DNA of 40,252 nucleotides from Chitinophagaceae bacterium (GTDB taxonomy: Bacteria > Bacteroidota > Bacteroidia > Chitinophagales > Chitinophagaceae). Shown in pieces: positions 2,907-26,983 of this stretch. Numbering within the stretch: the first letter of the stretch is position 1; the number at the start of each line of letters is the position of its first letter. The stretch spans positions 1-40,252 of the forward strand of contig CANGWB010000015.1 of the NCBI GenBank assembly GCA_947457465.1. Direction: 5' to 3'. The notes below the pieces were generated by a model. It worked only from the letters and a program-made list of their open reading frames with translations, was not told the DNA's origin and ran no database searches. Position numbers and translations under genes: made by a program.

Positions 2907-2979
2907 AGGTAGAAAGTAGAAGGCTTAATCCATTCTACGTTCTACTTTCTACTTTCTACCTTCTACGTTCTACTTTCCG
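2907..2979. repeat. Intergenic TAGAAAGTAGAA-type inverted repeat
   Basis: A purine-rich arm (ggtagaaagtagaagg, 2908-2923) is followed by a pyrimidine-rich arm made of repeated ttctacttt / ttctacgtt units (2932-2979). The arms are imperfect reverse complements and could fold into a hairpin. The element fills most of the spacer between the divergent secreted protein gene and rlmH and ends 11 bases before the rlmH start. The same word recurs at about 9160, 12832, 13591 and 26937. Confidence 0.75.
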
Positions 2980-2990
2980 TATTTTTAACC

Positions 2991-3464
2991 ATGCGTATCT
3001 CCCTCTGGTCGGTCGGTAAAGTCCATGACCCCTATGTTAAAGCCGGGGTAGAAGAATTCACCAAACGCATCGGGCGCTATTACAAGGTGGACTGGCAACT
3101 CATCCCCACCCCCAAGAACGCCGCCACCCTCAGTGAAATGGACCTGCAGATAAAAGAAGGAGAGATCATTCTGGAATGGCTGCAACCCGACGATTATCTC
3201 ATCGCACTCGAAGAAACCGGCAAACAACACAGCTCAGAAGAGCTAGCCAACTTCATCCAACAACGCGCCAATGAAAGCCGTAAACGCCTCGTGTTTTTGA
3301 TAGGTGGTGCTTACGGACTCTCCGATGCCGTGCTCAAACGAGCCGATCATAAATGGAGCCTTTCTAAATTGGTATTCCCGCATCAATTGGTTCGACTCAT
3401 CCTCGCCGAACAACTCTACCGCGCTTGTACCATCCTGCGCGGCGAAAAATATCATCACGCATGA
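2991..3464 (+). CDS. rlmH: 23S rRNA (pseudouridine1915-N3)-methyltransferase RlmH
   Basis: A 157-residue SPOUT-class methyltransferase of the usual family length. It starts MRISLWSVGK and carries the C-terminal trefoil-knot SAM-binding signature: FLIGGAYGLSDAVL, then LSKLVFPHQLVRLILAEQLYRACTILRGEKYH. RlmH methylates pseudouridine 1915 in helix 69 of 23S rRNA on the assembled 70S ribosome. The stop TGA overlaps the ATG of the following rhomboid gene (ATGA), suggesting translational coupling. A TATTTTTA element (a weak -7 match) lies just before the start. Confidence 0.96.
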   Translation: MRISLWSVGKVHDPYVKAGVEEFTKRIGRYYKVDWQLIPTPKNAATLSEMDLQIKEGEIILEWLQPDDYLIALEETGKQHSSEELANFIQQRANESRKRLVFLIGGAYGLSDAVLKRADHKWSLSKLVFPHQLVRLILAEQLYRACTILRGEKYHHA

Positions 3465-4135
3465 CCCTCACCATCACCCTCTCCATCGTTCTTTTCACCA
3501 CCGCAGTATCCATTGGCGGATTCTCCAACCATAAACTGATCGATGACCTTATTTTTTATCCGCCCGCCATTACCAAACGAAATCAATGGTATCGATTCTT
3601 CACCTGCGGAGTTATACATGCCGACTGGGGACATCTGCTATTCAACATGCTCTCTCTATATCTGTTCGGTGATTTTGTAGAACAGGCATTCAACCAAGAC
3701 CTGCTCTTCGGAGAAAACGGAAAATCATATTACCTGATCCTCTACATATCAGCTCTTTTCTTTTGCCTGATACCGACCTTCATCAACCACCGCAACGACA
3801 GCTGGTATAAAAGTTTGGGTGCTTCCGGGGCCGTGAGTGCCATCGTGTTTGTAGGCATCTTGTTCAATCCGACTGCCAAACTGGGATTCTTCTTTATTCC
3901 ACCTATTATTCCCGGTTACATCTTCGGACCGCTCTATCTGCTCCTTTCTTCCATGATGAGCCGCCAAAGCCGAGATAACATCAATCACTCCGCCCATATC
4001 TGGGGAGCTTTATACGGACTGGCCTTTACGATCGCACTGGCCTTCCTGCTGAAAACAGACTATCAACCCGCACAGGAGTTTTGGTGGAAAGTCAGCGCCC
4101 ACCTGAATAGTCTCGGTATTCAATTACCGAGATGA
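3461..4135 (+). CDS. Rhomboid family intramembrane serine protease
   Basis: A 224-residue protein with about six membrane segments. It has the rhomboid features in order: HADWGHLLFNM (loop-1/helix-2 region with HxxxN), the catalytic serine motif SLGASGAVSAIVF, and the catalytic histidine helix NHSAHIWGALYGL. Rhomboids cleave transmembrane substrates within the membrane; the substrate here is unknown. The start was placed at the ATG overlapping the rlmH stop, because the upstream extension is out-of-frame rlmH sequence. Its last 12 bases overlap the convergent tilS gene. Confidence 0.9.
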   Translation: MTLTITLSIVLFTTAVSIGGFSNHKLIDDLIFYPPAITKRNQWYRFFTCGVIHADWGHLLFNMLSLYLFGDFVEQAFNQDLLFGENGKSYYLILYISALFFCLIPTFINHRNDSWYKSLGASGAVSAIVFVGILFNPTAKLGFFFIPPIIPGYIFGPLYLLLSSMMSRQSRDNINHSAHIWGALYGLAFTIALAFLLKTDYQPAQEFWWKVSAHLNSLGIQLPR

Positions 4136-5766: not shown

Positions 5767-5813
5767 GTGGATATTCAATAAGCAGCGGATGGAGGCAATC
5801 GGACGGGGGCACT

Positions 5814-5821: not shown

Positions 5822-5857
5822 CAGCATCAATAAAATCGAACTCAATAACCTGCTAAT

Positions 5858-6601
5858 ATGAAGATCCTGGTTTGCATCAGTAAGACGCCCGATACCACGG
5901 CAAAAATAGCCTTCACGGATAACAACACGAAATACGATACCAACGGCGTACAGTGGATCATCAACCCCTACGACGAATGGTATGCACTAGTCCGTGCCAT
6001 TGAATTGAAAGAAGCCGATGCCTCGATTGCACTGCACCTGATCTCGGTCGGTGGTGCCGATGCAGAACCCATCCTTCGTAAAGCACTGGCTCTTGGTGGC
6101 GATGAAGCCATTCGGATAAATATCGACAGCGATGATAGTTTCGTGATCGCTACACAGATCGCAGAGGCGGCTAAAACTGGCGGATATGACCTGATCCTAA
6201 CCGGTAAGGAGACCATCGACCACAACGGATCTTCGCTGGGGGGAATGGTTGCGGAACTACTCGACCTCCCTTATGTATCCCTGGCCACCAAACTGGAATT
6301 GAACGGAACCACCGCCAATGTGACCCGCGAGATCGATGGCGGACAGGAACTGAATGAAGTACCAACCCCCGTAGTGATCAGCGCGCAAAAAGGAATGGCC
6401 GAAGCCCGCATCCCGAATATGCGCGGAATCATGGCCGCTCGCACCAAACCACTCAAGGTGGTGGAGCCCGTAGCCTGCGAAGCACTTACCACAACCGTTT
6501 CTTTCGAATTACCCCCTGCGAAGGCCGGCGTGAAACTAGTGGATGCCGAGAATGTGCAGGAGTTGGTGCGTTTGTTGAAAGAAGAAGCGAAAGCGATTTA
6601 G
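5858..6601 (+). CDS. etfB: Electron transfer flavoprotein subunit beta
   Basis: A 247-residue EtfB/FixA protein, the usual length. It starts MKILVCISKTPDT and has NGVQWIINPYDEWYALVRAIELKE and the conserved TGKETIDHNGSSLGGMVAELL segment. EtfB forms a heterodimer with EtfA and carries AMP while the complex shuttles electrons from acyl-CoA dehydrogenases to ETF:quinone oxidoreductase. Its partner lies 121 bases downstream. An acyl-CoA dehydrogenase lies at the right end of the window. The TAG stop runs directly into a purine-rich repeat. Confidence 0.96.
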   Translation: MKILVCISKTPDTTAKIAFTDNNTKYDTNGVQWIINPYDEWYALVRAIELKEADASIALHLISVGGADAEPILRKALALGGDEAIRINIDSDDSFVIATQIAEAAKTGGYDLILTGKETIDHNGSSLGGMVAELLDLPYVSLATKLELNGTTANVTREIDGGQELNEVPTPVVISAQKGMAEARIPNMRGIMAARTKPLKVVEPVACEALTTTVSFELPPAKAGVKLVDAENVQELVRLLKEEAKAI

Positions 6602-6661
6602 AGTTGAGGGATGAGAGGTGAGAGGTGAGAGATGAGAGGTGAGGGATGAAGGGTGAAGGGG
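6601..6661. repeat. Heptad purine-rich repeat between etfB and etfA
   Basis: About eight imperfect 7-base units of the form gaggtga / gagatga / gggatga / agggtga follow the etfB stop immediately. No pyrimidine-rich partner arm is present before etfA, so this is a one-armed copy of the repeats seen at 9301, 15031, 16804 and 26883. Confidence 0.75.
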
Positions 6662-7754: not shown

Positions 7755-8360
7755 ATGCAGAAGATTGAACTGGAGATAGTTGCTTTATCGCACAGCATGG
7801 CGCAAACCCATTCGTATGTGGTCGTGTTGGGTGAAGTAGGTGGACTCCGTCGGTTACCGATTATTATTGGCGGACCGGAAGCGCAGGCGATCGCCGTAGC
7901 ACTGGAGGATATGAAACCGGTTCGTCCCCTCACGCACGATCTTACCAAGAACCTGATGAATGCCTTTGAGATCGATCTATTGGAGGTGGTGATCAGCGAT
8001 CTGCAAGAAGGTGTATTCTTTGCCAAATTGGTTTGTAGCAGTCAGCACGATACCGTGGAGATCGATTCCCGGACCTCGGATGCCATTGCGATGGCGGTAC
8101 GATTCGGTTGTCCGATCTATACCTACGATGAGATCCTGGATTCAGCGGTGAGCAATGGCGATGAGCCGGCTGCCGGCACCAAAAAGAAACTCCCGGCCAA
8201 GGGTAAAGAGCCGGTGAAAGAAAAACCGGCAGGCAGTGCTGAATTAAGCGCTATGTCGGTCGAGGAACTGGAAAATCATTTGAACGAAGTACTGGAGCAA
8301 GAAGATTATATGCGCGCCATCGCGATCCGCGATGAACTCAACCGCCGAAAAGGCAATTGA
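7755..8360 (+). CDS. Bifunctional nuclease family protein (DUF151) with UVR-like tail
   Basis: A 201-residue protein. Residues 1 to about 135 match the bifunctional nuclease (BFN, DUF151) fold: LPIIIGGPEAQAIAVALE, RPLTHDLTKNLMNAF, and DSRTSDAIAMAVRFGCPIY. A Lys/Pro-rich linker (about 138-160) leads to a C-terminal helical hairpin, MSVEELENHLNEVLEQEDYMRAIAIRDELNRRK, resembling the UVR motif of UvrB/ClpC proteins. BFN domains are reported with DNase/RNase activity in plants and with redox or light-linked roles; the bacterial role is uncertain. One base separates the stop from the ispE ATG, so the two are likely co-translated. Confidence 0.86.
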   Translation: MQKIELEIVALSHSMAQTHSYVVVLGEVGGLRRLPIIIGGPEAQAIAVALEDMKPVRPLTHDLTKNLMNAFEIDLLEVVISDLQEGVFFAKLVCSSQHDTVEIDSRTSDAIAMAVRFGCPIYTYDEILDSAVSNGDEPAAGTKKKLPAKGKEPVKEKPAGSAELSAMSVEELENHLNEVLEQEDYMRAIAIRDELNRRKGN

Positions 8361-8361
8361 T

Positions 8362-9171
8362 ATGATACTTTTCCCGCCCGCTAAGATCAACCTCGGGTTG
8401 CGCATTTTGCGAAAGCGGTCGGACGGCTACCACGATCTCGATACTTGTTTTTATGCTGTCGGATTGACCGATGTGCTGGAGATTCTGCCAGCTGCGGAAA
8501 TGTCGTTGAACGTCACCGGCATCGTTCCACCCGGAAATCCCGATGACAATCTATGTGTGAAGGCCTGGCATTTATTGAAGGCTGATTTCCCTTCACTTCC
8601 TACTGTATACATGCATTTACACAAGAACATCCCTACCGGAGCTGGATTGGGTGGTGGTAGTGCGGATGGAGCCTATGCGTTACGCGGACTGAATGAAAAA
8701 TTCAACTTGGGATTGTCACGCGAGCAACTGATCGAATACGCAGTACAGTTAGGAAGTGATTGTCCGTTTTTCATCCACGACACCCCTTGTATCGGATCGG
8801 GTCGTGGTGAGCTTTTGCAACCGATCGATCTGTCGCTAAAGTCATATCATATTTTACTGATCAATCCCGGTATTCATATTTCGACGAAAGAGGCGTTTGC
8901 GGGTACCACCCCGATAGAAGATCGCAAACCGATACGAGAGATCATCGCGCAGCCAATTGAATCTTGGCAAGAAGAACTAATGAATGATTTTGAGTCCTCG
9001 ATATTTCCGAACCACCCTGAAATCGCCCGCATCAAACAGCAACTGATCGACGCCGGTGCGGTGTATGCGAGTATGAGTGGAAGTGGGAGTACGGTGTATG
9101 GGATTTTTAAGGGGGAGCCGGGGCGGTTGGAGTTTCCTGAGCACTATTTCATTTACTGGTGTAGAATGTAG
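8362..9171 (+). CDS. ispE: 4-diphosphocytidyl-2-C-methyl-D-erythritol kinase IspE
   Basis: A 269-residue GHMP kinase. It starts MILFPPAKINLGL, has DGYHDLDT, and the GHMP ATP loop PTGAGLGGGS at residues 91-100. The C-terminal motif SMSGSGSTVYGIF is also present. IspE phosphorylates CDP-methylerythritol in the MEP isoprenoid pathway. The start was chosen one base after the upstream stop. The last residues (YWCRM) and the TAG stop are encoded by the start of a GTAGAA-type repeat, suggesting that the native 3' end was changed by the repeat. Confidence 0.94.
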   Translation: MILFPPAKINLGLRILRKRSDGYHDLDTCFYAVGLTDVLEILPAAEMSLNVTGIVPPGNPDDNLCVKAWHLLKADFPSLPTVYMHLHKNIPTGAGLGGGSADGAYALRGLNEKFNLGLSREQLIEYAVQLGSDCPFFIHDTPCIGSGRGELLQPIDLSLKSYHILLINPGIHISTKEAFAGTTPIEDRKPIREIIAQPIESWQEELMNDFESSIFPNHPEIARIKQQLIDAGAVYASMSGSGSTVYGIFKGEPGRLEFPEHYFIYWCRM

Positions 9172-9208
9172 AACGAAGAAGGTTTAAACTTTCTACTTAA
9201 ATCGTAGA
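9160..9208. repeat. GTAGAA-type repeat overlapping the ispE stop
   Basis: The sequence gtagaatgtagaacgaagaagg is followed by tttaaactttctactt, so a purine arm meets a pyrimidine arm around a GTTTAAAC centre. The 19-base word agaaggtttaaactttcta (9177-9195) recurs exactly at 13604-13622. The first TAG pair of the element provides the ispE stop codon (9169-9171). Confidence 0.7.
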
Positions 9209-9300
9209 TTTACAACTGATGTTCAAGTTCACATATACGAACACGTCTGTGCTCCAGTCCAACCTGGACCTCCTGAATCACTAAGGGCCTTTGGTGTTTA

Positions 9301-9379
9301 GGGATGAGGGATTAGAGTTTAGATCACCCCCATCTCATCTCTCATCTCTCATCTCTCATCTCTCATCTTTCATTTCTCC
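9301..9379. repeat. Heptad repeat (CTCATCT)n upstream of rocD
   Basis: A short purine segment (gggatgagggattagag) is followed by at least five near-perfect tandem copies of the heptamer ctcatct, ending in tttcatttctcc. The array ends about 22 bases before the rocD ATG and would form a pyrimidine-rich 5' leader if transcribed. Being a 7-mer array it can slip and vary in copy number. Confidence 0.8.
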
Positions 9380-9401
9380 TCTGGGGAGCAATCTATTAGT
9401 C

Positions 9402-10607
9402 ATGAACACGCATCAATACATCGAACTCGAACATAAGTACAGTGCCCACAACTACCATCCACTCCCTGTTGTTCTATCGCGCGGGGAAGGTCCGTATGTA
9501 TGGGATGTGGAGGGCAAGCGCTACCTCGATTTTTTGAGTGGCTATTCGGCCGTAAATCAAGGGCATTGTCATCCGCGGTTGATCAATACGCTTGTTGAAC
9601 AAGCTGGTAAATTAACGTTGACCAGTCGAGCCTTTCACAGCGATAAGCTCGGTGAGTATGCTGAATTCATCACGAACTATTTCGGATACGATAAGGTACT
9701 GCCCATGAATACTGGCGTAGAGGCGGTGGAGACAGCCATCAAGATCACGCGCAAATGGGGCTATGAGGTGAAAGGTATCCCGGACGGGCAAGCGAAGATT
9801 GTGGTCTGTGAGCACAACTTTCACGGACGCACCTCTACCGTGGTATCCTTCTCTACCGACCCAACGGCTCGCGCACATTTTGGTCCGTACATGCCCGGAT
9901 TCATAACCATTCCTTACAATGATGTATCTGCCTTGGAGGCGGCCCTGGAAGATTCGAACGTGGCCGGGTTCTTGGTAGAACCCATACAGGGCGAAGCCGG
10001 TGTGGTGGTGCCTGATGAGGGGTATCTGTCCAAGTGTAAATCGCTTTGTGAAGAGAAGCGGGTGCTATTCATGGCCGATGAAATACAGACAGGTTTAGGG
10101 CGTACGGGTAAAATGCTGGCTTGTGATCATGAAGGGCTGCGACCCGATGTATTGATCTTAGGCAAGGCCTTGAGTGGCGGACTCCTGCCAATAAGTGCAG
10201 TGTTGACCGATAGTGAGGTGATGGACTGTATACATCCGGGTGAGCATGGCTCTACGTTTGGCGGAAATCCACTCGCTTGTGCCGTAGCGATGGAGGCCTT
10301 GAAAGTGATTCGAGAGGAAAAGTTAGCGGGAAATGCAGCGGAGTTGGGTGGATGGTTTCGGGAGCAGCTTAGGGCATTGGATCATCCAATGATCTCGCTG
10401 GTGCGTGGCAAGGGACTATTAAATGCAATAGTGATCAATGACCCGAATCCGGATGCAGCCTGGGATCTTTGTCTGCGCATGAAAAATAATGGCCTACTAG
10501 CCAAGCCCACGCATGGGGATAAGATACGGTTTGCACCGCCGTTGGTGATTACACAAACTCAGGTAGAGGATGCAATTGGAATAATCAATGGCAGTTTAGA
10601 AAGTTGA
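9402..10607 (+). CDS. rocD: Ornithine--oxo-acid aminotransferase
   Basis: A 401-residue class-III PLP aminotransferase of the usual length. Seen motifs are the N-terminal [33 protein letters not shown], the PLP-contacting [12 protein letters not shown] (Asp226), the Schiff-base lysine in LGKALSGG (Lys255), and the C-terminal [10 protein letters not shown]. The N-terminal block distinguishes ornithine aminotransferase from acetylornithine aminotransferase. It converts ornithine and 2-oxoglutarate to glutamate semialdehyde and glutamate, linking arginine and proline metabolism. The start is the ATG after the heptad array; an upstream in-frame start would translate the repeat and was rejected. 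The TGA stop lies within the first unit of the next inverted repeat. Confidence 0.95.
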
Positions 10608-10670
10608 GGTAGTTGAGAGAGTTTAGGTAAGTGATAACTCAACCTCCTAGACTCTCTCAACCTTCTCAAC
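10603..10670. repeat. Inverted repeat between convergent rocD and T9SS gene
   Basis: The left arm (10603-10627, gttgaggtagttgagagag...) and the right arm (10646-10670) are reverse complements at about 21 of 25 positions with an 18-base loop. The left arm carries the rocD TGA stop. The hairpin sits at the 3' ends of two convergent genes and may act as a bidirectional terminator or mRNA 3'-end stabiliser, although no strong T run follows. Confidence 0.75.
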
Positions 10671-10674
10671 CTGT

Positions 10675-12616
10675 TTACTCCTTCACTACCTTAACCGACT
10701 TCTCTCCTACTGAGATCAGATACTGACCTTTTGCCAGATTACTGATATCGAACGGAATGCTGTTGTTACCGGCCAGTACATTGACTTGGCGGGTTTGAAG
10801 GACTCGCCCACCCAGATCGATCAGTCGGATGGTGACGGATTTATTATCCGGTGCATTGAGCAGAACGGTTACCTGTCCGCGTGACGGATTCGGATACACC
10901 GACGCGATCTCAAAGGCAGACGGTTTATCACCCTGGATCAGCAGGATGTTGCTAAGCGTGCTGCGACCGTCAATATCCATTTGTTTGAGTCGGTAGTATT
11001 GCTTGAGACCGTTTGGATTGGCGTCCGTGAAATTGTACTTCAGTTGTGTCTGACTATTTCCACCAACGGCCAAGCTGTTGACAAATCCGATGGGTTCATA
11101 GTTCTGTCCGTCGGTCGAACGCTGCACTTCGAATCCGCTATTGTTAAGCTCAGATGCAGTTACCCAACGAAGTTGGTTCCGGAATCCGTCTTTGTAGCCG
11201 GAGAATGAAAGCAAGGAGACCGGAAGGGGGGGGGACCACGGGTGTTCCTTGGACGGTTGAACTAGCAACACCGCTTCCGGCACTATTTACTGCTCGTAGC
11301 TGAATATCGTAAGTAGTGCCATTTGTCAAACCAGTAATTAGCAATGGACTAGTGGTTACTGCCGGACTTGGAGTAACCCAATCAGTTCCGCCGTTAATTG
11401 AATATTCATAGTTGGTGATGCTGGCACCCCCATTTGAGGAGGGAGCAGTAAACGCCACTGAGAGTTGATTGTTACCGGGTGTAATGCCGGTGATAGTGGG
11501 TGCTGCAGGTGTAGTTCTGGGTGTAGCCGTTGAACCCGCTGTTGCAACCGTACCATCTCCAATGGCATTAACTGCGCGTATCCTGACTGTATATGCCGTA
11601 CCGTTTGTAAGTCCAGTTATTACAATAGGAGAAGATGTACCTGAACGCGTTGTGTAATTAGTGCCATCTACCGACCATTTGTAATCTGTAATAGCAGAGC
11701 CTCCATCAGAACCTGCAGTAAATGCTACACTCAATTGGCCATCTCCGGGTGTAATGGTTCCGATGGTGGGGGCTGCAGGGACTGTGACAGTTTTTTTTAA
11801 ATAAACATTATCAAAAAAAGCAGTTTGGGTGCTACCTGTTGAACCCTGCCAGTAACCACCAACGTATCGCATGCCGGTAGCCGAGGTATATGTGCTGTTA
11901 ACCGCAGTGCCTTGAGAGGTAAGAGTGCCGCTAGTAGGATCAGTAAAGGATGAGCTCCCATCATTACGCAGGAAAAGCTCCCAAGTATTGTTACTCGGAA
12001 TATAGGTTACTCTGACGCTAATATAGTCAGCTCCAAAGTCTGCAAGGCTTGCTGTATTGCTTGTTATAATATTAGTGAGTGTACCTTGCAACCCGTTATT
12101 GAAGTGTGCCAATCGGATGGGGTCGGTAGTTCCGCTTTGACCAAGTACAACCGCATACCCACTGCCGGCTGTGGCTGCTGTTACATTTGTACTCGCAAGG
12201 ACAAAAGCAACACCATAAGAATTCAAACCAAATCCGGACGGATCAGTCCTGATTTGACGCATATTAAACTCCCAGGTAATGGTTCCTGTATTGCTCGAAA
12301 GTGTGGTATTCCAACCGGAGATGGTGTTTATATCTTGATAGCCAAATCCCCAGCCATCAGCATTGGATTGTATCGATGCATCATTTGTTATATCTAATCT
12401 ACCACCATCAATTTTAGCTCCCCAATCTGTTCCAGATCTAGAAATTACCCAGTTGGCATCGTTTCCGATTACTCCTGCGGCAGCGGTGTAAGTAGATCCC
12501 CTACTCGTTCCAAAGTTGTCACTAAAAAGTGTCGTCTGCCCCCATCCCACTTGCGTAAGCATCATCATTGCCAGTAACAACATCAAAGAACGAACGGAAC
12601 GTGTAATGTTGATCAT
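10675..12616 (-). pseudogene. T9SS-sorted fibronectin type III protein, frameshifted at a C9 run
   Basis: Two reading frames together make one protein. Frame 1 (12616 to about 11225) encodes a signal peptide (residues 1-26, ending QVGWGQ), a lectin/concanavalin-like beta region (about 28-275), and two fibronectin type III domains (about 280-367 and 369-460, each starting PAAPTI..ITPG..QLSVAFTA). Frame 2 begins at PPLPVSLLSFSGYKDG, the block that usually precedes the Bacteroidota sorting region, and ends with a T9SS type A tail (SVYPNPSRGQVTV...GQYLISVGEKSVKVVKE). The switch falls on nine consecutive C (coding strand, 11226-11234). With eight C the product would be one protein of 646 residues. 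It could be a true mutation, phase variation or a sequencing error. The product would be exported by Sec and attached or released at the cell surface by T9SS. Confidence 0.85.
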
Positions 12617-13215
12617 AAAATACAGTTGAGGTGGTGGAGGAGTTTGAAAGAGTTGAGAGGCTTTATTTTTCGGAGGTCGAAAGTCGTTTTTATCGATCGG
12701 TTAAATCTTAAGCCATTATTAAGTGATTCTTATCAAACCATTAACGTAGCTATCATAAGGAAGTTAGAGCGTAAACCCCTATAAAAAAACCAACAAAGTG
12801 GCATGTGGAAAACGTGGGGAGAAGGACAAGCAGTAGAAAGTAGAAGGTAGAAGTAAAAGAGCCAAAAAGATACAGGTCACAAACTAAATTGAGCATCAAT
12901 CACCTGCACGGATAAAAGATCGTAAAATGACCCCCCTTTGGGTGAGTACCCGCAGAAAATAACTACCAGGCGTTAGGGTTTTCAATGGCAGCCATATAAA
13001 TGGAATAAATGGAATCCCCCTTCGCATCATGTAGAATGATTGATGAGCTTGCGGAAGCCGCGGAATAAAAGGAGAAAATTATTAAAGTCAGGTTAACGGA
13101 TCACAAAGAGTCCGGGCATGGGGGGGCAGGCAGGGGAAGTTGATGAGATGAGGGATTGAGTCATAATATGCCTCATGCATTTTGACAACTCCCCAATATG
13201 CACTTCATTTGCCAA
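12617..13215. other. 600-base spacer: repeat arms and a gene relic
   Basis: No intact gene. It holds three purine-rich repeat segments (12637-12661 with gagtttgaaagagttgagagg; 12832-12855 with gtagaaagtagaaggtagaag; 13143-13161 with gatgagatgaggg) and a decayed T9SS tail on the minus strand (described separately). The stretch 12670-12830 is AT-rich and probably holds the promoter of the fibronectin-III protein, but no clear TAnnTTTG element was found. Confidence 0.6.
12896..13097 (-). pseudogene. Relic of a T9SS type A sorting domain
   Basis: Translating the minus strand gives, in one frame, VNLTLIIFSFYSAAS then SSSIILHDAKGDSIYS (13097 to about 12990). After a frame change around 12966-12990 it continues LKTLTPGSYFLRVLTQRGVI and ends LRSFIRAGD with a TGA at 12896-12898. 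Strand order and spacing resemble the roughly 80-residue C-terminal sorting domain (beta strand, hD..G...YS, L.PGSYFLRV, stop). There is no start and no upstream coding region. It looks like the surviving end of a deleted surface-protein gene on the same strand as the neighbouring T9SS gene. Confidence 0.5.
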
Positions 13216-13605
13216 ATGAAACGCTCTACACTCATCGCCCTACTATTTGGATCGCTAACGGCTATCACCTGTTTTTTACCGTGGATGAGTATCGAGTCCA
13301 AAGACCTGCTGATTACCGGTATGGATACCACGGGTACCAAGTTCGGCAAACCCGGACTCCTCCACCTGATCCTAGCCGGCATCTACACCATTTTTACGTT
13401 GGTGCCGAAAGCATGGGGACAACGAGCCAATCTCCTGGTCATTGCCGTCAACGCCGCCTGGTGTCTTCGTAATTTCTTGCTGCTGTCCGCCTGTTCCGGC
13501 GGTGAATGCCCCGTTCGTTTATACGGATTCTATCTGCTGCTCATTAGCTCCATCGGCATGATGGTGGCTACGCTGTTTACCAAGAAGGAAGAAGGTAGAA
13601 AGTAG
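13216..13605 (+). CDS. Small hypothetical membrane protein
   Basis: A 129-residue protein with four hydrophobic segments (about residues 4-25, 45-65, 72-95 and 100-123) and a polar loop with FLPWMSIESKDLLITGMDTTG between the first two. An ACSGGEC cysteine pair lies between segments three and four. No family is recognised. An ATG 18 bases upstream (giving MHFICQ) is an alternative start. The last residues GRK and the TAG stop are encoded by a GTAGAAAGTAG-type repeat, so its natural C-terminus may have been replaced. Confidence 0.65.
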   Translation: MKRSTLIALLFGSLTAITCFLPWMSIESKDLLITGMDTTGTKFGKPGLLHLILAGIYTIFTLVPKAWGQRANLLVIAVNAAWCLRNFLLLSACSGGECPVRLYGFYLLLISSIGMMVATLFTKKEEGRK

Positions 13606-13633
13606 AAGGTTTAAACTTTCTATGTTCTACTTT
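13591..13633. repeat. GTAGAA-type inverted repeat shared by two convergent gene ends
   Basis: gaaggtagaaagtagaaggtt is followed by taaactttctatgttctacttt. Purine and pyrimidine arms flank a GTTTAAAC centre. The left arm supplies the TAG stop of the forward membrane protein (13603-13605). The right arm supplies the TAG stop of the reverse permease (13627-13629). The central 19-mer is identical to that after ispE. Confidence 0.75.
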
Positions 13634-15030: not shown

Positions 15031-16882
<1,852 letters not shown>

Positions 16883-16883
16883 T

Positions 16884-16917
16884 AAAAAAGCCCCCTCACT
16901 GAAGTGAAGAGGCTTTT
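16884..16917 (-). terminator. Rho-independent terminator of the metalloprotease gene
   Basis: On the minus strand AAAAGCCTCTTCAC pairs with GTGAGGGGGCTTTT across a TTCA loop and runs into TTTTTT. It starts about 20 bases after the metalloprotease stop codon. Confidence 0.85.
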
Positions 16918-16936
16918 AAAGCTAGGTTATGATCGA

Positions 16937-19900
16937 TTAACGGTAGACTACGATGCTGACGGCCTTGGTGGTCACCTTACCGTTCTCATCGTTCACCAAG
17001 TAAACCTGATAGGTACCGCTAGGTTGACCAGAGATGTCCATTGGAAGAACAGCACCGTAACGAACGCCGCTGAAGCTCTTCGTTTGGATCTGCTGACCGA
17101 GTGCATTGAACACGCGGACTTCAAGCTTAGTCACAATATCCGTACTAATACCAATGTTGAACTGGCCGTTATTCGGACTTGGATAAACAATGATGGCCGG
17201 GAACTTGTCGATCGTCAGTTGACGCTCAGCACACTGGTTCACCAGGATCGTACGGGTAGCGTTGGAGGTACAGCCTGCTACTGTTACAGAGTAGGTTACT
17301 GCTCTAGGACCAACACCAGCCACTGTGGGATTAAAATTACCGCCCGTAACACCTGTACCAGAGAAAGTTCCTCCTGCAGGAGTAGCCGAGAGAGCTACAG
17401 GCTGATCGGATTTACAAACTGTGGTCGGCGGGTTGAAGCTTACGATCGGGAACGGATTCACATTCAGTAAAGCAAGCGCTGAGTTTACTGTACCACATCC
17501 CGCAGAAACGAGCACACGGAATACATAGTTGTTCTGACCTACTAGTGTACCGGGAATGGTATAGGATGAAGCTGTAGCACCTGGAATACTTGTGTAGTTG
17601 ATTCCGTTGGTGCTGAACTGCCACTGATACGTAAGCGTACCAACTCCTGTTGAAGCTACTACTGAGAATGTAGCGTTTGCACCCTCACAGACCTGTACAG
17701 ATTGTGGTTGAGTTGTGATAGTTGGGAAGGTGTTCACGGTCAATGTTGCCGCGTTTGATGTACCAGGAGAACAGCTGGTGTTCGAAGCCACCATACGGAA
17801 CTGGTTTCCGTTCTGAGTACCCAATACACCGGTGATCGTCAGGGTTGTTGAGGTAGCACCGGAGTAAACACCCCCATTGCTGAGGTTTGTCCAGCTACCA
17901 CCGCCATTGGTACTGATCTGCCACTGGTAGGAAAGTCCGGAACCGGCAGCGCCAGATGTGAAGCTGATGTTGGTAGCCTCACAAACGGTCTGACTTACAG
18001 GCTGTGCGGAGATCGTGATGTTGGAAGAGACGGTCAGGGTAGCAGCAGAAGTAGTAGCACTTCCGCAAGTACCGGTCACTACGCAACGGAATTGATTGTT
18101 GTTCTGAGAAGTAGCTACAGCAGCAATGTTGTACGTTGATGCAGTTGCACCACCGATGGGGTTCCAGCTGGTACCACCATCCGTACTGAGTTGCCATTGG
18201 TAGGTCAGTCCGGCACCAACTGCAGCAGTCGTGAAGCTGGCGGCGCTACCAGAGCAGAGAGCCAAGCTTACAGGCTGTGTTGTGATAGCCGTAGTCGGAT
18301 TCACAGTTAAAGTTGCAGCGCTGGAGGTCGTGCTTCCGCACTGACCCGTTACGATGCAACGATATTGATTGTTATTGATGGCTGTTGCGCCAGTGATCGC
18401 ATATGTCGCAGCTGAGGCACCCGAGATATTGCTCCAGGAGGTTCCACCGTTCGTGCTCACTTGCCATTGGTAGGTACCGCTGGAAGTAACCGAGAAGGAT
18501 CCGGCCTGACCGATACAAACAGCCAGGTTAGCAGGCTGACCAGTGATGGCTGGTCCTGAACCTGCGTTGATCGTGAAGGTCAGGGTAGCTGTCTGGTTCG
18601 TAGCACCCGCTCCAGCACCTTGAACCGTAACGGTATAGGTACCAGCCGCAAGTGTGTTGGTTCCATTCAGCGTTACATCACTGGTACCGGTAGGCGTTAC
18701 AGGGTTTGTACCGAATGAAACGGTTGTACCAGCAGGTAATGTAGAAGTGTTTGAAAGTGTTACGGGGTTATTGTAACCACCGGCTGAGTTTACAGGCAGT
18801 GTCACAGTCATGCTAGCAGGCGCCGGACAAGCAGCGGTAGCAGCAGTAGTTGAACCGAAGATGAATCCGAACGGCGGCGGAATGATCGTAAAGTTGGCGT
18901 TATTAATATCAAAGAAGATATTACCAACGGCCTCCACCTTCACACGACAAGTGGTGCTAGGTGTGTTTGGTACTGTGATCACTTCTGATCCGTCATTTGG
19001 AGTACTTGCTACCAGCGTAGTGAATGTAGTTCCTCCGTCTGTGGAGACAGAGATCTTCACGTTTGCACAGTTGATAGGTGCACCAGTTGTACCATTTACA
19101 GACCAGCTAACTGTTTCAGTTGTACCGGCTGTCCAGGTCACTGCAGTATTCTGTGTAGTGATCAGGAATGGTCCAAGGCTGGATACCGTTACCAACATGT
19201 CATCAGACTTATTGTTACCGCCACCAACGCGGTTATCCTTCGCAATGAAACGGAAGTTCAGCGGACGGGCTACAGAAGGAAGCACCTCCCACTGGAAGTT
19301 ATTGGACCCGTTCAAGATATATTGCAGAGAAGGAAATGTACGCTCAGGGATACTGTACGAAAGATAAGTACGGAACATGGGCCCGTTCGTTGCAGTGGCT
19401 GAAGGTATGCTTGGGAAGGCGCCTGTACGCACGTCAATCTGCTCCCAGTTGTAGGTAAGTACATCAGTAGGGTTGGGATCGGAAGCCGTACCAGTTAATT
19501 TGAAAGGAGTAGAAATGGGGATGATGTAATCCAATCCCGCATCAACTGTTGGTGCCGTATTACCTGTTGTTGTCTGAACGGCGCAAGTAGCACCCGTACC
19601 GGTTTTGATATAGTTGGTCACCTGCTCGATACTCTTCACGGAGAAAAGTTCGATACTATGTGCGGCCACATCGGTGGAACCGGTGATACCGGCATAACCC
19701 ATGATGGTTACACCACTACCGGGCTCAACATTCACACCGGTACCTTCCAAGTTGAAGGAGAATGTATGGTTGGCACCGAACTGGTGTCCGATCTCGTGCG
19801 TCAAGTAGTCGATCACGAAAAACTCAAGGAGTGAAGGGTTGCTATAGACAGTCCAACCACGTCCCTTGGTAGTATTATTACAAACGCAACCGATACAACC

Positions 19901-20839
19901 GGCGTTACCGTTGTCGGAGCCTTTGCTTTCGGTATGACCGATATCGTAGTTACCATTCCCGATCTGCGCATCGATAGCTGCCATACAAGTGGCACCGACA
20001 GGATTGCTCGGGTTAGCGATTGGGTCGGTTGCTGGATTGAAATAAACAACTTGGTTGTTGTTTGAAACCAGCACCAGACGAACGCCGAAATCACGCTCGT
20101 ATACCTGATTGGTACGAGTGACGTGGCTATTTTGTGCAGCAATAACAGCAGCTACGGAATCAGCCAATGAAGGAAGTCCGCCTGCAGGGATGAAATGCAG
20201 CGAAAATTCCGCTCCGGAGATCATTGCCAGACGATACGTACGAAGTTTTCCGTCATCTGCATTGTTCTCGATGCCTTCACGATTGGTCATCTGATTCTGA
20301 AAATTCTCCGTGAAACACTCAAAGTTGAGAGGGGCATCAGTCATATCGCTCCTGCGAGCAACCCGGTAGTAATTCTGATACATCTGATCGATGTAAACAG
20401 CCGAATTGGATCCTTTCAGGACCGTTGCATGTACACCATGCATGGAAACGTCAAAACGAATGTTGGCTGATGGATCATCCACGCCGACACCCGCATAGGA
20501 ATTGATGCCGGGGAATTTAGCGGCGAGACCTTCTTCCATGGAGGGCGCATTCACCACGCGGAATTTCTGCACGCTGCCATCTGGCATTGGGAAATCCACA
20601 ATAAAAGGAGATGCACTCACGGGCACATTACGCTCGTGTGGCGCATTGGCCATGAACTGCTTGAAGGCAGTCTCATCAAGACGAAAAAGTTTAAACGCAG
20701 AAGGACGCTTGCTTTTGCTGGCTTGGAACAGGTCCACACCCGCTTGGCTTTCGTCGGTCATTGACCAGAAGCTTCTGGATTGTCCGAAAGCAGAAGAAAA
20801 CATCAACACCGCGAACAAGGAGAGTAAAAAATTTCTCAT
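16937..20839 (-). CDS. Secreted reprolysin-like metalloprotease with Ig-like repeats and T9SS tail
   Basis: A 1300-residue protein. Residues 1-20 are a signal peptide ending SSAFGQ. A prodomain-like region (about 21-200) follows. The catalytic domain (about 200-420) has the metzincin zinc motif HEIGHQFGANH (His348, Glu349, His352, His358) and a Met-turn TIMGYAG (Met380). Then come PKD-like and beta-sandwich domains (about 430-750) and four Ig-like repeats starting near 763, 850, 940 and 1040, each with QP.....C, YQWQ.S.(N/D)GG and a C-terminal C. A further beta domain (about 1131) and a T9SS type A sorting tail from IVYPSPNNGQFNI (about 1216) to VVYR follow. It is predicted to be exported by Sec and T9SS to the surface or medium as an endopeptidase. 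The substrate is unknown. It has its own terminator. Confidence 0.93.
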   Translation of the reverse strand: MRNFLLSLFAVLMFSSAFGQSRSFWSMTDESQAGVDLFQASKSKRPSAFKLFRLDETAFKQFMANAPHERNVPVSASPFIVDFPMPDGSVQKFRVVNAPSMEEGLAAKFPGINSYAGVGVDDPSANIRFDVSMHGVHATVLKGSNSAVYIDQMYQNYYRVARRSDMTDAPLNFECFTENFQNQMTNREGIENNADDGKLRTYRLAMISGAEFSLHFIPAGGLPSLADSVAAVIAAQNSHVTRTNQVYERDFGVRLVLVSNNNQVVYFNPATDPIANPSNPVGATCMAAIDAQIGNGNYDIGHTESKGSDNGNAGCIGCVCNNTTKGRGWTVYSNPSLLEFFVIDYLTHEIGHQFGANHTFSFNLEGTGVNVEPGSGVTIMGYAGITGSTDVAAHSIELFSVKSIEQVTNYIKTGTGATCAVQTTTGNTAPTVDAGLDYIIPISTPFKLTGTASDPNPTDVLTYNWEQIDVRTGAFPSIPSATATNGPMFRTYLSYSIPERTFPSLQYILNGSNNFQWEVLPSVARPLNFRFIAKDNRVGGGNNKSDDMLVTVSSLGPFLITTQNTAVTWTAGTTETVSWSVNGTTGAPINCANVKISVSTDGGTTFTTLVASTPNDGSEVITVPNTPSTTCRVKVEAVGNIFFDINNANFTIIPPPFGFIFGSTTAATAACPAPASMTVTLPVNSAGGYNNPVTLSNTSTLPAGTTVSFGTNPVTPTGTSDVTLNGTNTLAAGTYTVTVQGAGAGATNQTATLTFTINAGSGPAITGQPANLAVCIGQAGSFSVTSSGTYQWQVSTNGGTSWSNISGASAATYAITGATAINNNQYRCIVTGQCGSTTSSAATLTVNPTTAITTQPVSLALCSGSAASFTTAAVGAGLTYQWQLSTDGGTSWNPIGGATASTYNIAAVATSQNNNQFRCVVTGTCGSATTSAATLTVSSNITISAQPVSQTVCEATNISFTSGAAGSGLSYQWQISTNGGGSWTNLSNGGVYSGATSTTLTITGVLGTQNGNQFRMVASNTSCSPGTSNAATLTVNTFPTITTQPQSVQVCEGANATFSVVASTGVGTLTYQWQFSTNGINYTSIPGATASSYTIPGTLVGQNNYVFRVLVSAGCGTVNSALALLNVNPFPIVSFNPPTTVCKSDQPVALSATPAGGTFSGTGVTGGNFNPTVAGVGPRAVTYSVTVAGCTSNATRTILVNQCAERQLTIDKFPAIIVYPSPNNGQFNIGISTDIVTKLEVRVFNALGQQIQTKSFSGVRYGAVLPMDISGQPSGTYQVYLVNDENGKVTTKAVSIVVYR

Positions 20840-24142: not shown

Positions 24143-24152
24143 TCTTCCATTA

Positions 24153-24160
24153 TATATTTG
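24153..24160 (+). promoter_or_regulatory. Candidate -7 element for the DUF1573 lipoprotein gene
   Basis: TATATTTG, an exact TAnnTTTG match, lies 9 bases before one ATG and 15 before the next. It sits in the 33-base gap after nusB, suggesting an internal promoter with a very short leader. Confidence 0.5.
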
Positions 24161-24175
24161 TCCCATTACATGTAT

Positions 24176-24631: not shown

Positions 24632-24657
24632 ATTTTATTCAACCTTACAATTCATTT

Positions 24658-25053
24658 ATGATCAATCGCATCCTTAGCCTCTCTGCACTCATTGTGTTGT
24701 CACTTTCTTCTTGTATGCCCCCTCCCGGTGGCAATGCCTCCGGCAAACCCAGTAGTCCTTTGGGGGATTACGGATCGCTGGTATTCATGGGTATGATCAT
24801 CCTGGTCTTCTGGTTATTCTTCATCCGCCCGCAGGCGAAAAAACAAAAAGAACAGAAGAAGTTCATTGAGGACATGGGCAAAGGAGATAAGATCGTTACG
24901 ATCGCCGGTATCCATGGAACCATCAATAAAGTGAATGAGGATGGAACGATCCAACTCGAGGTGAATCCGGGTAGCTATCTCAAGATCGAACGCTCTGCGA
25001 TCAGCATGGACTGGACCGCAGCGTTGAACAAACCCACTCCTGAGAAAAAATAA
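24658..25053 (+). CDS. yajC: Preprotein translocase subunit YajC
   Basis: A 131-residue protein. A lipoprotein-type signal with Cys19 (LSLSSC) precedes one membrane helix (about 40-60, LVFMGMIILVFWLFFIRPQ). The YajC hallmark RPQAKKQKEQKKFIEDMGKGDKIVTIAGIHGTI follows. YajC associates with SecDF in the Sec translocon; secDF is also in this window, 3.3 kb downstream. A lipobox before the membrane helix is unlike E. coli YajC. Upstream frame was rejected because it overlaps the previous gene out of frame. A terminator follows. Confidence 0.94.
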   Translation: MINRILSLSALIVLSLSSCMPPPGGNASGKPSSPLGDYGSLVFMGMIILVFWLFFIRPQAKKQKEQKKFIEDMGKGDKIVTIAGIHGTINKVNEDGTIQLEVNPGSYLKIERSAISMDWTAALNKPTPEKK

Positions 25054-25058
25054 ACTTC

Positions 25059-25083
25059 AAACCGGCCTCGTGCCGGTTTTTTT
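25059..25083 (+). terminator. Rho-independent terminator after yajC
   Basis: The 8-bp stem aaaccggc / gccggttt with loop ctcgt is followed by a run of T. It lies six bases past the yajC stop. Confidence 0.88.
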
Positions 25084-25100
25084 CATTCGTATTTTCAATC

Positions 25101-25700
25101 ATGCTTCGAATCGGACTGACTGGCGGGATCGGTAGCGGCAAATCGACCGTTGCCGGGATCTTTCAATCTTTAGGGATCCCGATCTACTCCTCGGATGTCG
25201 AGGCCAAACGTTTGATGCGCGAGGATGCCGCTGTTCGGCAGGCGATCGAAACCGCCTTCGGTAAGGATGTCTACGTGAACGATCAGCCCGACACAAAAAG
25301 ACTGGCATCCATCGTCTTCCAAGATCCGACCTCTTTGGAGAAACTCAATCAGATCATACATCCCGCTACGATTGCAGATGCCAAAAAATGGATGAGCCTG
25401 CAAACCGCCCCGTATGTAGTTAAAGAATCAGCCTTGATCTTTGAAAGTGGTGCGGGGGAAGGACTAGATCTTATTGTATGCGTGTATGCTCCTAAATCAC
25501 TTCGTATCCAACGCGTGATGCAACGAGAACGTGTTGATCGGGAAACCGTACTGGCCCGAATGAACAAACAGATCGATGAAGAGCTGAAGCGTCGGTTGTG
25601 CGATCGTATGATCTTGAACGACGAGCAACAACCCTTGTTACAACAAGTGCTGAAGTTGCATGAAGAGCTGTTGACCCTGAGTAAAAACGGATCAGTGTAA
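25101..25700 (+). CDS. coaE: Dephospho-CoA kinase
   Basis: A 199-residue P-loop kinase of the usual length. It starts MLRIGLTGGIGSGKST with the P-loop at residues 8-16. It also shows YSSDVEAKRLM (substrate-binding Asp), HPATIADAKKW, and RQRVMQRERVDRETVLARM-type lid residues followed by a DRMILND motif. It catalyses the last step of coenzyme A synthesis. A TATTTTCA element (weak -7 match, 25090-25097) lies only 3 bases before the ATG. The last 9 bases overlap the convergent aminotransferase gene. Confidence 0.96.
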   Translation: MLRIGLTGGIGSGKSTVAGIFQSLGIPIYSSDVEAKRLMREDAAVRQAIETAFGKDVYVNDQPDTKRLASIVFQDPTSLEKLNQIIHPATIADAKKWMSLQTAPYVVKESALIFESGAGEGLDLIVCVYAPKSLRIQRVMQRERVDRETVLARMNKQIDEELKRRLCDRMILNDEQQPLLQQVLKLHEELLTLSKNGSV

Positions 25701-26882
25701 TGCCGCGAGGGCTTTTTTGATTCTAGCCCAACCTTCCTCGATCTTGGTCATGCTATTGGCAAAAGAGAATCGAACACAGGTTGGCTCTCCGAATGCATCG
25801 CCCATCACGGAAGAAACATGCGCGTTATTCAATAGATACATACTGAGATCGGCCGCGTTGGAAATCACAGTCGTGCCATCTGTTTTTCCGAAATAAGCAC
25901 GCACATCGGGAAATACATAGAATGCGCCCTCAGGTTCCGGGCAAATCAAGCCGGGTATTTCATTTACCAGTTGCAGCACACGGGTGCGTCGGTTGGTGAA
26001 TTCTTGTACCATGTCCAAGGTCGGACGAAGGTCAGATACCAAAGCAGCTACAGCAGCTTTTTGCGCGATGGAGTTGGTACCGCTGGTGAATTGCCCTTGT
26101 ACTTTTTCACAGGCCTTGGCAATGGTGGCATTGGCCGCGATATAACCGATGCGCCAACCCGTCATCGCAAAACCTTTACTGAGTCCGTTGATCACCACTA
26201 CCCTATCTTTTAATTCAGGAATCGCCGCCAAACTGAAATGCTTGCCGACAAAATTGATGTACTCATAGATCTCATCGGAGAGGATCATGATCTGCGGATA
26301 TTTCAGGAAGACCGCCGCCAAGGCCCGCAACTCCGATTCTGAATAAACAGCACCGCTTGGATTACAAGGCGAGGAGAAAAGAAACAATTTGGTGCGGGGT
26401 GTGATGGATGCTTCCAGTTGCTCGGGACTGATCTTGAATCCTTGATCTGCTGAAGTGCGTACGGTCACCACTCTTCCTCTTGCAATCTTCACCAGTTCAC
26501 TGTAAGTCACCCAGAACGGCGTAGGGATGACCACTTCATCTCCTTCATCTACCAGTGATAGTATTGCATTGGCCAGACTTTGTTTGGCCCCGGTGGAAAC
26601 AACAATATTTTCCGGAGCATATTCGAGCCCATTATCTCTTTTGAGTTTGGTGCAGACCGCTGCCCGTAAGTCGGGAAAGCCCGCTACAGGCGTATAATGA
26701 CTCCAGTTATCCTGTATCGCCTGTATGGCAGCTTCTTTGATGTGCTGAGGCGTATCAAAATCAGGTTCACCCAAACTCAGATCGATCACATCGATTCCTT
26801 GCGCACGCAACTCCCGGCCCAGTTTGGCCATTTTAAGTGTTTCCGGTTCGTTGAATCGATCGAGGAAGGATGATAAAATCAT
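25692..26882 (-). CDS. Class I pyridoxal-phosphate aminotransferase (aspartate-type)
   Basis: A 396-residue fold-type I aminotransferase. It shows DLSLGEPDFDTP, YTPVAGFPDLR, STGAKQSL (phosphate binding), SPCNPSGAVY (Asn174), SDEIYEY (Asp203, Tyr206) and the PLP lysine in GLSKGFAMTGWRIGY (Lys236), plus a C-terminal VRFSFANS arginine. This pattern fits subgroup Igamma aspartate aminotransferases (AspC/AatA-like) of Bacteroidota, transferring the amino group of aspartate to 2-oxoglutarate; other acceptors are possible. The ATG directly follows a pyrimidine-rich heptad leader. Confidence 0.92.
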   Translation of the reverse strand: MILSSFLDRFNEPETLKMAKLGRELRAQGIDVIDLSLGEPDFDTPQHIKEAAIQAIQDNWSHYTPVAGFPDLRAAVCTKLKRDNGLEYAPENIVVSTGAKQSLANAILSLVDEGDEVVIPTPFWVTYSELVKIARGRVVTVRTSADQGFKISPEQLEASITPRTKLFLFSSPCNPSGAVYSESELRALAAVFLKYPQIMILSDEIYEYINFVGKHFSLAAIPELKDRVVVINGLSKGFAMTGWRIGYIAANATIAKACEKVQGQFTSGTNSIAQKAAVAALVSDLRPTLDMVQEFTNRRTRVLQLVNEIPGLICPEPEGAFYVFPDVRAYFGKTDGTTVISNAADLSMYLLNNAHVSSVMGDAFGEPTCVRFSFANSMTKIEEGWARIKKALAALH

Positions 26883-26983
26883 GGGTGAAGGGTGAGAGAT
26901 GAAGGATGAAAGATGAAGGATGAAATTAAGTGTTAAGTTCTATTCTATATTTTCTACTTTCTTCTTTCTACTTTCTACTTCTT
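26883..26983. repeat. Mixed heptad and GTAGAA-type repeats
   Basis: 26883-26924 is a purine heptad arm (gggtgaa gggtgag agatgaa ggatgaa agatgaa ggatgaa) touching the aminotransferase ATG. 26937-26983 is a pyrimidine arm of the second family (ttctactttcttctttctactttctacttc) that supplies the TAG stop of the serine hydrolase (26968-26970). Two repeat families sit next to each other in one spacer. Confidence 0.75.

Follow-up and report, generated by a model that had tools for sequence, protein, structure and literature searches.

Why should the inverted repeats between bacterial genes nearly always place a purine-rich arm ahead of a pyrimidine-rich one? The question is raised by contig CANGWB010000015.1 of a Chitinophagaceae bacterium, the whole 40,252 nt of which are referred to here as the window and which is one (C15) of the 46 contigs of a 2.06-Mb genome that is 100% complete. 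Its intergenic spacers hold tracts of short tandem repeats that serve as the arms of inverted repeats, and a sequence-only reading had offered three functions for them, namely mobile hairpins, 3’ stabilisers or a system pairing mRNA ends. Of these three, the 3’ element is the one that the present analysis supports, and none of the findings calls for a pairing of mRNA ends. Tentatively, we read the tract hairpins as 3’-end elements that may act, at least partly, as bidirectional transcript ends. The repeats keep to one arm order, are anchored at stop codons, change rapidly at sites shared with a sister species, and occupy convergent spacers that avoid ordinary terminators.

Arm order in the window and in relatives

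In the 24 window spacers examined (3,495 nt with flanks) there are 12 period-7 tracts and 2 period-9 tracts; 200 Markov-1 resamplings yielded on average 0.02 of the former (at most 1) and 0.03 of the latter. The repeats noted earlier are thereby borne out. In every two-armed window site the purine-rich arm (R) precedes the pyrimidine-rich arm (Y), an order that, as had been pointed out, is symmetric under reverse complement. It extends to the rest of the source genome (G000), of which 828,351 nt (including 9,441 N) and 459 spacers were sampled in stretches. Here, neighbouring arms follow each other as RY in 19 cases, RR in 2 and YR in 1, the sole YR being by eye a coding pyrimidine stretch, and the strong inverted repeats are purine-first in 29 cases, pyrimidine-first in none and mixed in 4 (n = 33), so that arm order across the genome is not random. 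The corresponding counts are 9/0/3 in the sister species G188 (n = 12), 4/0/3 in the relative G176 (n = 7) and 8/1/2 in the relative G007 (n = 11). At a looser threshold, the 36 repeat-built inverted repeats of the source genome comprise 33 purine-first, 0 pyrimidine-first and 3 mixed cases, whereas its plain ones are divided into 17, 6 and 12. As such, purine order was rejected as a rule for all inverted repeats and is strict in the repeat-built ones only. Furthermore, a pattern for the commonest word gave 8 purine-first matches at 6 places in the source genome and 1 place in a second genus, with no pyrimidine-first match in 149 genomes of the order.

A wider sample, for which the tract threshold was loosened, combines 78 family loci with 12 genomes of the genus. 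The family loci derive from 80 relatives of the ABC-F-type protein encoded in the window, among them Terrimonas, Sediminibacterium, Flavihumibacter, Lacibacter, Chitinophaga and many Chitinophagaceae metagenome-assembled genomes, with a few falling outside the Chitinophagaceae, a composition that puts the source genome in or near this family; two of the 80 were dropped from the counts of order, stop anchoring, terminators and inverted repeats, as their contigs match genus contigs in length. Skewed tracts in this sample are purine-rich on the left 35 times versus 9 and pyrimidine-rich on the right 24 times versus 6 (p = 2.6e-7), with 37 loci or genomes contributing, some of them related, and with possible further overlap between the family and genus samples. 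Opposite neighbours are RY in 7 cases and YR in none, although built from words unrelated to those of the source genome, and repeat-built hairpins are purine-first, pyrimidine-first and mixed in 17, 1 and 8 cases. Plain inverted repeats depend on the type of spacer (41, 7 and 23 in convergent, 36, 24 and 42 in tandem, and 4, 7 and 7 in divergent ones). Under another definition, applied to all 80 family loci, 6 repeat-built inverted repeats are purine-first and 1 pyrimidine-first (n = 10), as are 51 and 12 of the others (n = 127).

Pyrimidine-first exceptions were found in relatives only: at C71:24667 and C71:28160-28228 of G007, and in the fetched loci L181 and L251, the latter under the other definition. 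The first of the G007 sites (L094 4667-4753) is a GC-rich hairpin of GTCCTCC-like units, which is classed as plain because no called tract overlaps it; the second lies at L094 8160-8228. Some words have mixed purine content, and the GTCCRAT word of the relative G097, the arms of which are near half purine, forms an exception to the purine order. In that genome (L167 and L168) the GTCCRAT heptads adjoin short GTCCGC-GCA-GCGGAC palindromes, and a pattern of two such units is matched 4 times in forward and 15 times in reverse orientation.

Coding sequence largely lacks the tracts, as a check of coding regions confirmed: in the 828 kb of the source genome, period-7 tracts number 61 outside and 7 inside genes, period-9 tracts 21 and 12, and period-8 tracts 3 and 0, with arms present in 54 of the 459 spacers. 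In the 80 family loci, 66 period-7 tracts lie outside and 11 inside genes (28 and 1 for period 8), and in the wider sample, at its looser threshold, 137 tracts lie outside and 59 inside. The words of the source genome are TGAAGGR, TGAGAGR/TGAGGGA, GTAGAAR and 9-nt TTGAG/TTTAG units. TGARRGN occurs in 8 of 42 genus genomes and is strong in G000 (136), G007 (102) and G188 (85), and several other genus genomes use GRRAGTN, for example G176 with 195. A named isolate, Flavihumibacter fluminis RY-1 (L211), carries several GTGAGAC-type heptad tracts in the same layout and is a possible cultured model; tracts of this kind are also present in the loci of the cultured Flavihumibacter stibioxidans YS-17 (L215) and Lacibacter luteus TTM-7 (L241).

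The elements of the window, with open reading frame abbreviated as ORF, are as follows.

2901..2921, + strand: purine arm with the GTAGAAA word, in a divergent spacer
2933..2977, - strand: pyrimidine arm of TTCTACT heptads, 6.4 copies
6597..6660, + strand: lone purine tract of AGAGGTG/AGAGATG heptads, overlapping the stop of an ETF-domain gene (5858-6601); partner arm not found
9158..9182, + strand: purine arm over the stop of a GHMP-kinase gene (8332-9171), pairing weakly with the following CTTTCTAC
9293..9322, + strand: purine arm of the second hairpin in the same spacer as 9158..9182
9333..9382, - strand: pyrimidine arm of TCTCATC heptads, 7.1 copies, ahead of a class-III aminotransferase gene (start taken at 9402)
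10603..10627, + strand: purine arm with the 9-nt unit AGTTGAGGT, over the stop of a + strand gene ending at 10607
10646..10670, - strand: pyrimidine arm partnering 10603..10627, 84% complementary, in a convergent spacer
12624..12660, + strand: purine-rich stretch without partner arm, adjoining the start of a - strand ORF ending at 12616
12832..12853, + strand: lone purine tract of GTAGAAR
13582..13610, + strand: purine arm over the stop of a + strand ORF ending at 13605
13615..13633, - strand: pyrimidine arm extending into the 3’ end of a convergent permease gene
15031..15071, + strand: purine arm of a long-loop hairpin, in the spacer between two - strand genes
15155..15182, - strand: pyrimidine arm on the + strand; on the - strand, the purine tail at the stop of the ABC-F-type (ABC-transporter-domain) gene 15178-16803
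16804..16837, + strand: on the + strand, purine arm of the strongest hairpin, whose 28-nt arms are 89% complementary; on the gene’s own (-) strand, the pyrimidine arm immediately ahead of the ATG at 16803
16838..16852, - strand: loop of the strongest hairpin, with a TAnnTTTG-like box
16853..16880, - strand: pyrimidine arm on the + strand, purine arm on the gene’s own strand
26883..26924, + strand: purine tract with the TGAAGGA word
26938..26980, - strand: pyrimidine tract with a different word, TTTCTAC

Five of these sites form strong hairpins relative to shuffled sequences on both strands, with folding z-scores (+/- strand) of -7.8/-6.9 at 16804, -6.2/-6.6 at 10603, -5.1/-4.1 at 15031, -4.8/-3.9 at 2907 and -4.6/-3.4 at 13591. 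The stretch 9288-9383 is significant on a single strand only (-3.0/-0.7), and no significant hairpin was found at 9160 (-0.9/-1.1) or at 26883 (-1.6/+0.4), the latter because its two arms carry different words. The repeat at 10603, taken for a heptad, is a 9-nt one. The stretch 12624..12660 fails tract calling, and its part 12637-12660 yields no fold. A search of the window against Rfam at the gathering score returned a single match, a tRNA, and the repeats gave none.

The TAnnTTTG box in the loop of the strongest hairpin resembles what we take to be a promoter motif, and by eye it aligns with the box that precedes the orthologue in armless relatives (L030-L040). Judged by eye, the arms flank a native promoter-like element and did not arrive with it. 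Two further observations concern the window itself. In G007 (L075), when compared with window 2066-2990, the sequence beside the tRNA leads directly into the gene for the SPOUT methyltransferase, as judged by eye at the end of a contig, without gene 2116-2856 and without the hairpin beside that gene. Direct repeats 270-300 nt apart at 17604-18478 lie within the large - strand gene 16937-20839 and are perhaps repeated domains of a surface protein.

Anchoring at stop codons

The arm order had been taken to mean that each gene gains a pyrimidine-rich 5’ leader and a purine-rich 3’ tail. To place tracts relative to genes we used our own ORF and dicodon caller rather than curated annotation, and start positions are uncertain. 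Any spacer containing over 5 N was excluded, and tracts with a purine content of 0.4-0.6 were omitted (48 in the wider sample, 13 in the source genome, and 1, 6 and 15 in G188, G007 and G176). On the coding strand, purine tracts begin within 10 nt after a stop in 39 of 45 cases in the source genome, 14/17 in G188, 9/10 in G007, 10/20 in G176 and 36/56 in the wider sample, versus 3/43 for pyrimidine tracts in both the source genome and the wider sample. Within 10 nt ahead of a start lie 8/38 pyrimidine and 5/40 purine tracts in the source genome, and 10/33 and 6/46 in the wider sample, the median distance of pyrimidine tracts to the start being 32.5 nt in the source genome and 47 nt in the family and genus sample. 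It is therefore the stop codon and not the start that serves as the anchor: the purine-rich tail is supported, and the pyrimidine-rich leader is not supported as a rule. The purine-rich stretch 13138-13160, about 37 nt ahead of the ORF at 13198, likewise contradicts a leader rule. A stricter purine-segment finder, which misses T-containing words, gave a more muddled picture and was replaced (nearest tracts 3’ R 29, 3’ Y 15, 5’ Y 21 and 5’ R 15; adjacent pairs RY 10, YY 1 and RR 1).

Tracts occur in 15/45 convergent (33%), 38/237 tandem (16%) and 10/100 divergent spacers (10%) of the source genome, 53 of the 63 tract spacers being convergent or tandem, and the ranking is the same in G188 (8/38, 11/190 and 3/83) and G007 (7/11, 9/75 and 1/24).

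Could this anchoring arise without any function? The chief rival, which we consider somewhat unlikely, is that short repeats grow neutrally in spacers, push into the ends of genes and are filtered by stop codons, with arm order as a by-product: only the purine strand carries stops (TGA, TAG, TTGA, TTTAG), and so only this strand could abut the 3’ end of a gene without lengthening the protein. Indeed, the purine tracts that face a stop contain a stop codon in 45/45 cases in the source genome, 48/56 in the wider sample and 14/20 in G176, and 26 of the 45 in the source genome overlap the stop of the gene itself, so that stop anchoring is partly due to the tract supplying the stop codon. Nevertheless, purine tracts clear of the stop are also concentrated next to it, at 0.68 versus 0.34 expected in the source genome (n = 19) and 0.49 versus 0.12 in the wider sample (n = 39), though in G176 at only 0.09 versus 0.04 (n = 11). 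Furthermore, the repeat-built hairpins of divergent spacers, where no such filter acts, are purine-first in 7 of 7 cases in the source genome; the filter thus explains stop anchoring, but not the order in these spacers. Words without a stop can also make purine-first pairs, for example at G176 C8:9604-9798 (by inspection). A stop-codon cassette was as such rejected as the whole cause, given the divergent order and the stop-less tracts (6/20 in G176, 8/56 in the wider sample).

Terminators and turnover at shared sites

Terminators were scanned for mainly by folding in spacers of at most 250 nt, which replaced an exact-stem scan; the wider-sample counts use a simpler tract definition and spacers of up to 400 nt. 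Both scans overlook imperfect stems, and they undercount, because a hairpin in the spacer at 16804 that is terminator-like by eye (window spacer 16861-16936) was called by neither. In the convergent tract spacers of the source genome, a GC-rich hairpin followed by a U-tract was found in 0 of 15 by both scans, versus 17 of 29 convergent spacers without tracts (p = 7.9e-5, folding scan). The same comparison gives 3/8 versus 22/28 in G188 (p = 0.04), where the three cases are by eye the repeat hairpin itself, an ordinary terminator beside the hairpin, and a doubtful gene call, and 0/6 versus 2/3 in G007 (p = 0.083). Tandem spacers in the source genome show a similar difference (3/33 versus 53/185, p = 0.017). 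With the simpler definition, convergent spacers with and without tracts carry terminators in 1/19 versus 16/26 cases in G000, 3/8 versus 23/29 in G188, 0/5 versus 2/4 in G007, 2/5 versus 8/10 in G176 and 8/21 versus 88/129 in the wider sample (p = 0.013), and tandem ones in 6/41 versus 57/190, 1/14 versus 47/166, 0/16 versus 15/57 and 4/13 versus 28/68 in the four genomes. In terms of neutral repeat growth, terminators would be gone because repeats overwrote them, or the spacers never had any. A direct swap of a terminator for a tract was not found in convergent spacers compared with G188 or G007, the two classes agreeing in 13 of 13.

The sister species offers a closer view, at a median protein identity of 96.8% over 138 orthologues. 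Of 72 orthologous spacers, 9 have tracts called in both genomes, 2 only in G188 and none only in G000; both of the G188-alone spacers show tracts in the source genome by eye, and no clear empty site was found among the 72. A broader tract definition gave 13 in both and 1 in G188 alone (57 spacers). Compared with the more distant G007, 8 of 64 spacers have a tract in each genome, 5 have one only in G007 and none has one only in G000, and relatives in the family and genus samples lack many of the tracts of the source genome. Taken together, these counts indicate that sites persist between sister species but turn over among more distant relatives. At the shared sites, the sequence itself changes rapidly. 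Tract spacers have a median identity to G188 of 0.88 (n = 11), versus 0.95 for other spacers (n = 44), and a median length difference of 17 nt versus 0 nt, which the neutral account would also predict. The convergent spacer C4:9110-9166 has TGAAGG arms in the source genome and GTAGAA arms in the sister species, words differ at C4:13792 as well, and elsewhere arm differences come in units of 7 nt. Such pairs, in which one site holds a different word in each species but in an unchanged order, amount to a natural experiment on a layout that outlasts its sequence.

These comparisons bear on the suggestion that the hairpins are mobile, as palindromes like repetitive extragenic palindromic (REP) sequences or miniature inverted-repeat transposable elements, spread by a transposase with a fixed polarity inherited from one ancestral palindrome. 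Like REPs, the elements are dispersed, extragenic, palindromic and mostly found in convergent and tandem spacers (PMC3733652). Many arms end by eye in AGTTGA/TCAACT, and presence differs with distance, as the five G007-only spacers show. However, the Y1_Tnp domain of REP-associated tyrosine transposases (RAYTs) has no match in the source genome, while the control matches in 5 of 14 genomes; sites are common to the sister species, where one site can hold different words; and unrelated words in other genomes follow the same order, for which reason a single founder palindrome was rejected as insufficient. Mobility is in our view improbable.

Do the two arms of a hairpin belong together? In the source genome, arms pair better with their own partners than with the arms of other spacers (score 13.8 versus 10.2, 21 pairs, permutation p = 0.0003), as they do in G188 (5 pairs, p = 0.03). 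Strict covariation is unsupported, because exchanging arms between G000 and G188 costs little pairing: the value moves from -36.2 to only -33.6, with a loss in 6 of 8 spacers. This exchange used 8 of the 11 spacers, two single-arm cases and one identical one being omitted, and one of those used, G188 C23:2481, involves a doubtful gene call or split.

Hairpins as possible bidirectional transcript ends

How might such an element end transcripts in both directions? Arms of degenerate 7- to 9-nt tandem repeats form imperfect hairpins, in which the purine arm begins at or just past the stop codon and the complementary pyrimidine arm comes next, so that in convergent spacers a single hairpin could serve both genes. 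Purine-first is the sole order in which the last-transcribed arm is pyrimidine RNA, on purine DNA, in either direction, and as such fits a bidirectional 3’-end hairpin. We infer that this weaker hybrid would let go as the hairpin closes behind the polymerase, a design of which classical U-tract terminators are the extreme. Calculated by nearest neighbours, the mean 9-bp hybrid energy of arms as RNA in the source genome is -9.5 kcal/mol for pyrimidine arms, -11.4 for purine arms and -11.6 for coding sequence. The repeats, in turn, may make the arms tolerant of gains and losses of 7 nt, because the arms can re-pair in a shifted register.

Several points weigh against this interpretation. Relative to the average, the hybrid of a pyrimidine arm loses only some 2 kcal per 9 bp, a real effect but a modest one beside a U-tract, for which rU9:dA9 stands at -1.7. 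Divergent spacers need no terminator, yet 10 of 100 carry tracts in the source genome, with the 7 of 7 purine-first hairpins described above. G176 departs from the other genomes, both in its shares of tract spacers (3/17 convergent, 8/83 tandem and 4/30 divergent) and in its terminators (1/1 versus 8/12 in convergent and 3/5 versus 23/68 in tandem spacers with and without tracts, folding scan). The tandem difference is not significant in G188 (1/9 versus 45/164) or G007 (0/9 versus 13/61) in the same scan, and is absent from the wider sample (20/64 versus 136/533, p = 0.37). Tract hairpins and terminators also coexist: side by side in one G188 spacer, in the window spacer at 15031, which holds a U-tract terminator by the folding scan, and at about 16884-16918, where the terminator-like hairpin seen by eye adjoins the arm 16853..16880. 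Loops may moreover contain native elements, such as the promoter-like box of the ABC-F-type gene and a terminator in one G176 hairpin. Arm pairing is not uniform either, as the three pairs of G007 fit foreign arms better (own 21.2, other 25.2) and the exchange with G188 weakened pairing only slightly. Finally, in Escherichia coli the ribosome represses a terminator that directly follows a gene (PMC4824070).

The G176 case (L062 5565-5755) is worth describing in its own right: purine-first GTACGAA arms at both edges of a convergent spacer enclose, by eye, an ordinary terminator in the loop.

Alternatively, the C-rich, G-poor pyrimidine arm could recruit Rho against read-through into the next gene. 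The genome encodes a Rho RNA-binding domain, and arms such as CTCATCTCTCATC have the expected composition, but the pyrimidine arm would be paired with a complementary arm made earlier, the arms of the source genome match their own partners, which Rho would not need, and the purine-first order is left unexplained. We regard Rho loading as quite improbable.

The closest known systems are the degenerate tandem heptamers GGGAATC of Xanthomonas and GGGGA(T/C)T of Nostoc, which are mostly intergenic, with few between divergent genes; their G strand lies in sense no more than 50 bp from a stop, often overlapping it, or in antisense no more than 50 bp ahead of a start (PMC4692102). For Xanthomonas, 70 and 75 inverted pairs are given as convergent, and we take these to be G-first; Nostoc has only a few inverted pairs (PMC4692102). 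Tandem 7-nt intergenic units, a purine or G strand by the stop and purine-first pairs are thus shared, with periods of 8 and 9 added here. Unlike the fixed G-rich word of Xanthomonas, or that of Nostoc, the words here are many, some without a run of three G, and they differ between relatives and are swapped at the same site. What unites them is their content of purines, not of G, and terminator avoidance is shown here. The authors of that study view the repeats as quadruplexes for which a role in gene regulation could not be identified, and report that repeats able to form quadruplexes coincide with starts or stops of assembled transcripts more frequently than control repeats do (PMC4692102). 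G-quadruplexes or other DNA structures would account for the shared strand rule and stop-codon bias, and some local words have, by inspection, G3 runs (TGAGGGA, TGAAGGG). However, words without such runs, GTAGAAR here and AAAAAGT in L235, obey the rule, which argues against the quadruplex as a common cause. We regard this explanation as highly improbable.

Two further repeat families are instructive. The TAACTGA heptamers of Beggiatoaceae, Cyanobacteria and five Bacteroidetes are likewise intergenic and tandem, with one-strand stop codons limiting entry into genes, but involve one word, in 169 direct sets versus 1 indirect, mostly just ahead of starts in the genome described (PMC4679880). REPs and bacterial interspersed mosaic elements are also extragenic hairpins in mostly convergent or co-directional spacers, in families tagged GTAG or CGTC, the GTAG ones being tied to RAYTs (PMC3733652); here, words vary between spacers and sister species by inspection, and the genome lacks a Y1_Tnp match. 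Apart from the papers cited, no description of the layout in Bacteroidetes or Chitinophagaceae was found among the literature titles and abstract openings listed.

Bidirectional intrinsic terminators have the same purine-first order, with an A-tract first and a T-tract last around a hairpin after the stop. The elements described here differ from them in that the scan called no hairpin with U-tract in 15 of 15 convergent tract spacers of the source genome, and in that the arms are long tandem repeats. What is new is the turnover of words, the independence of order from any word, and the avoidance of terminators; the strand rule and the stop bias were known from Xanthomonas. It is conceivable, though unlikely, that the Chitinophagaceae possess a terminator class defined by architecture and not by any sequence or U-tract, with tandem-repeat arms that can slip and re-pair, in a purine-first order that would leave the last-made RNA in the weak pyrimidine-RNA:purine-DNA hybrid whichever way it is transcribed. 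Words would drift and be exchanged under a constant order and position, and Xanthomonas would have reached this design independently.

If transcripts do end at these hairpins, ordinary terminator finders would miss many ends in this family, where a third of the convergent spacers sampled in the source genome carry tracts (15/45). Purine-first order would then mark 3’ ends that work in both directions, whatever their sequence, and as a marker it could be put to the test in other phyla. If they do not, the polarity of the family sample becomes a puzzle about how repeats grow at the ends of genes.

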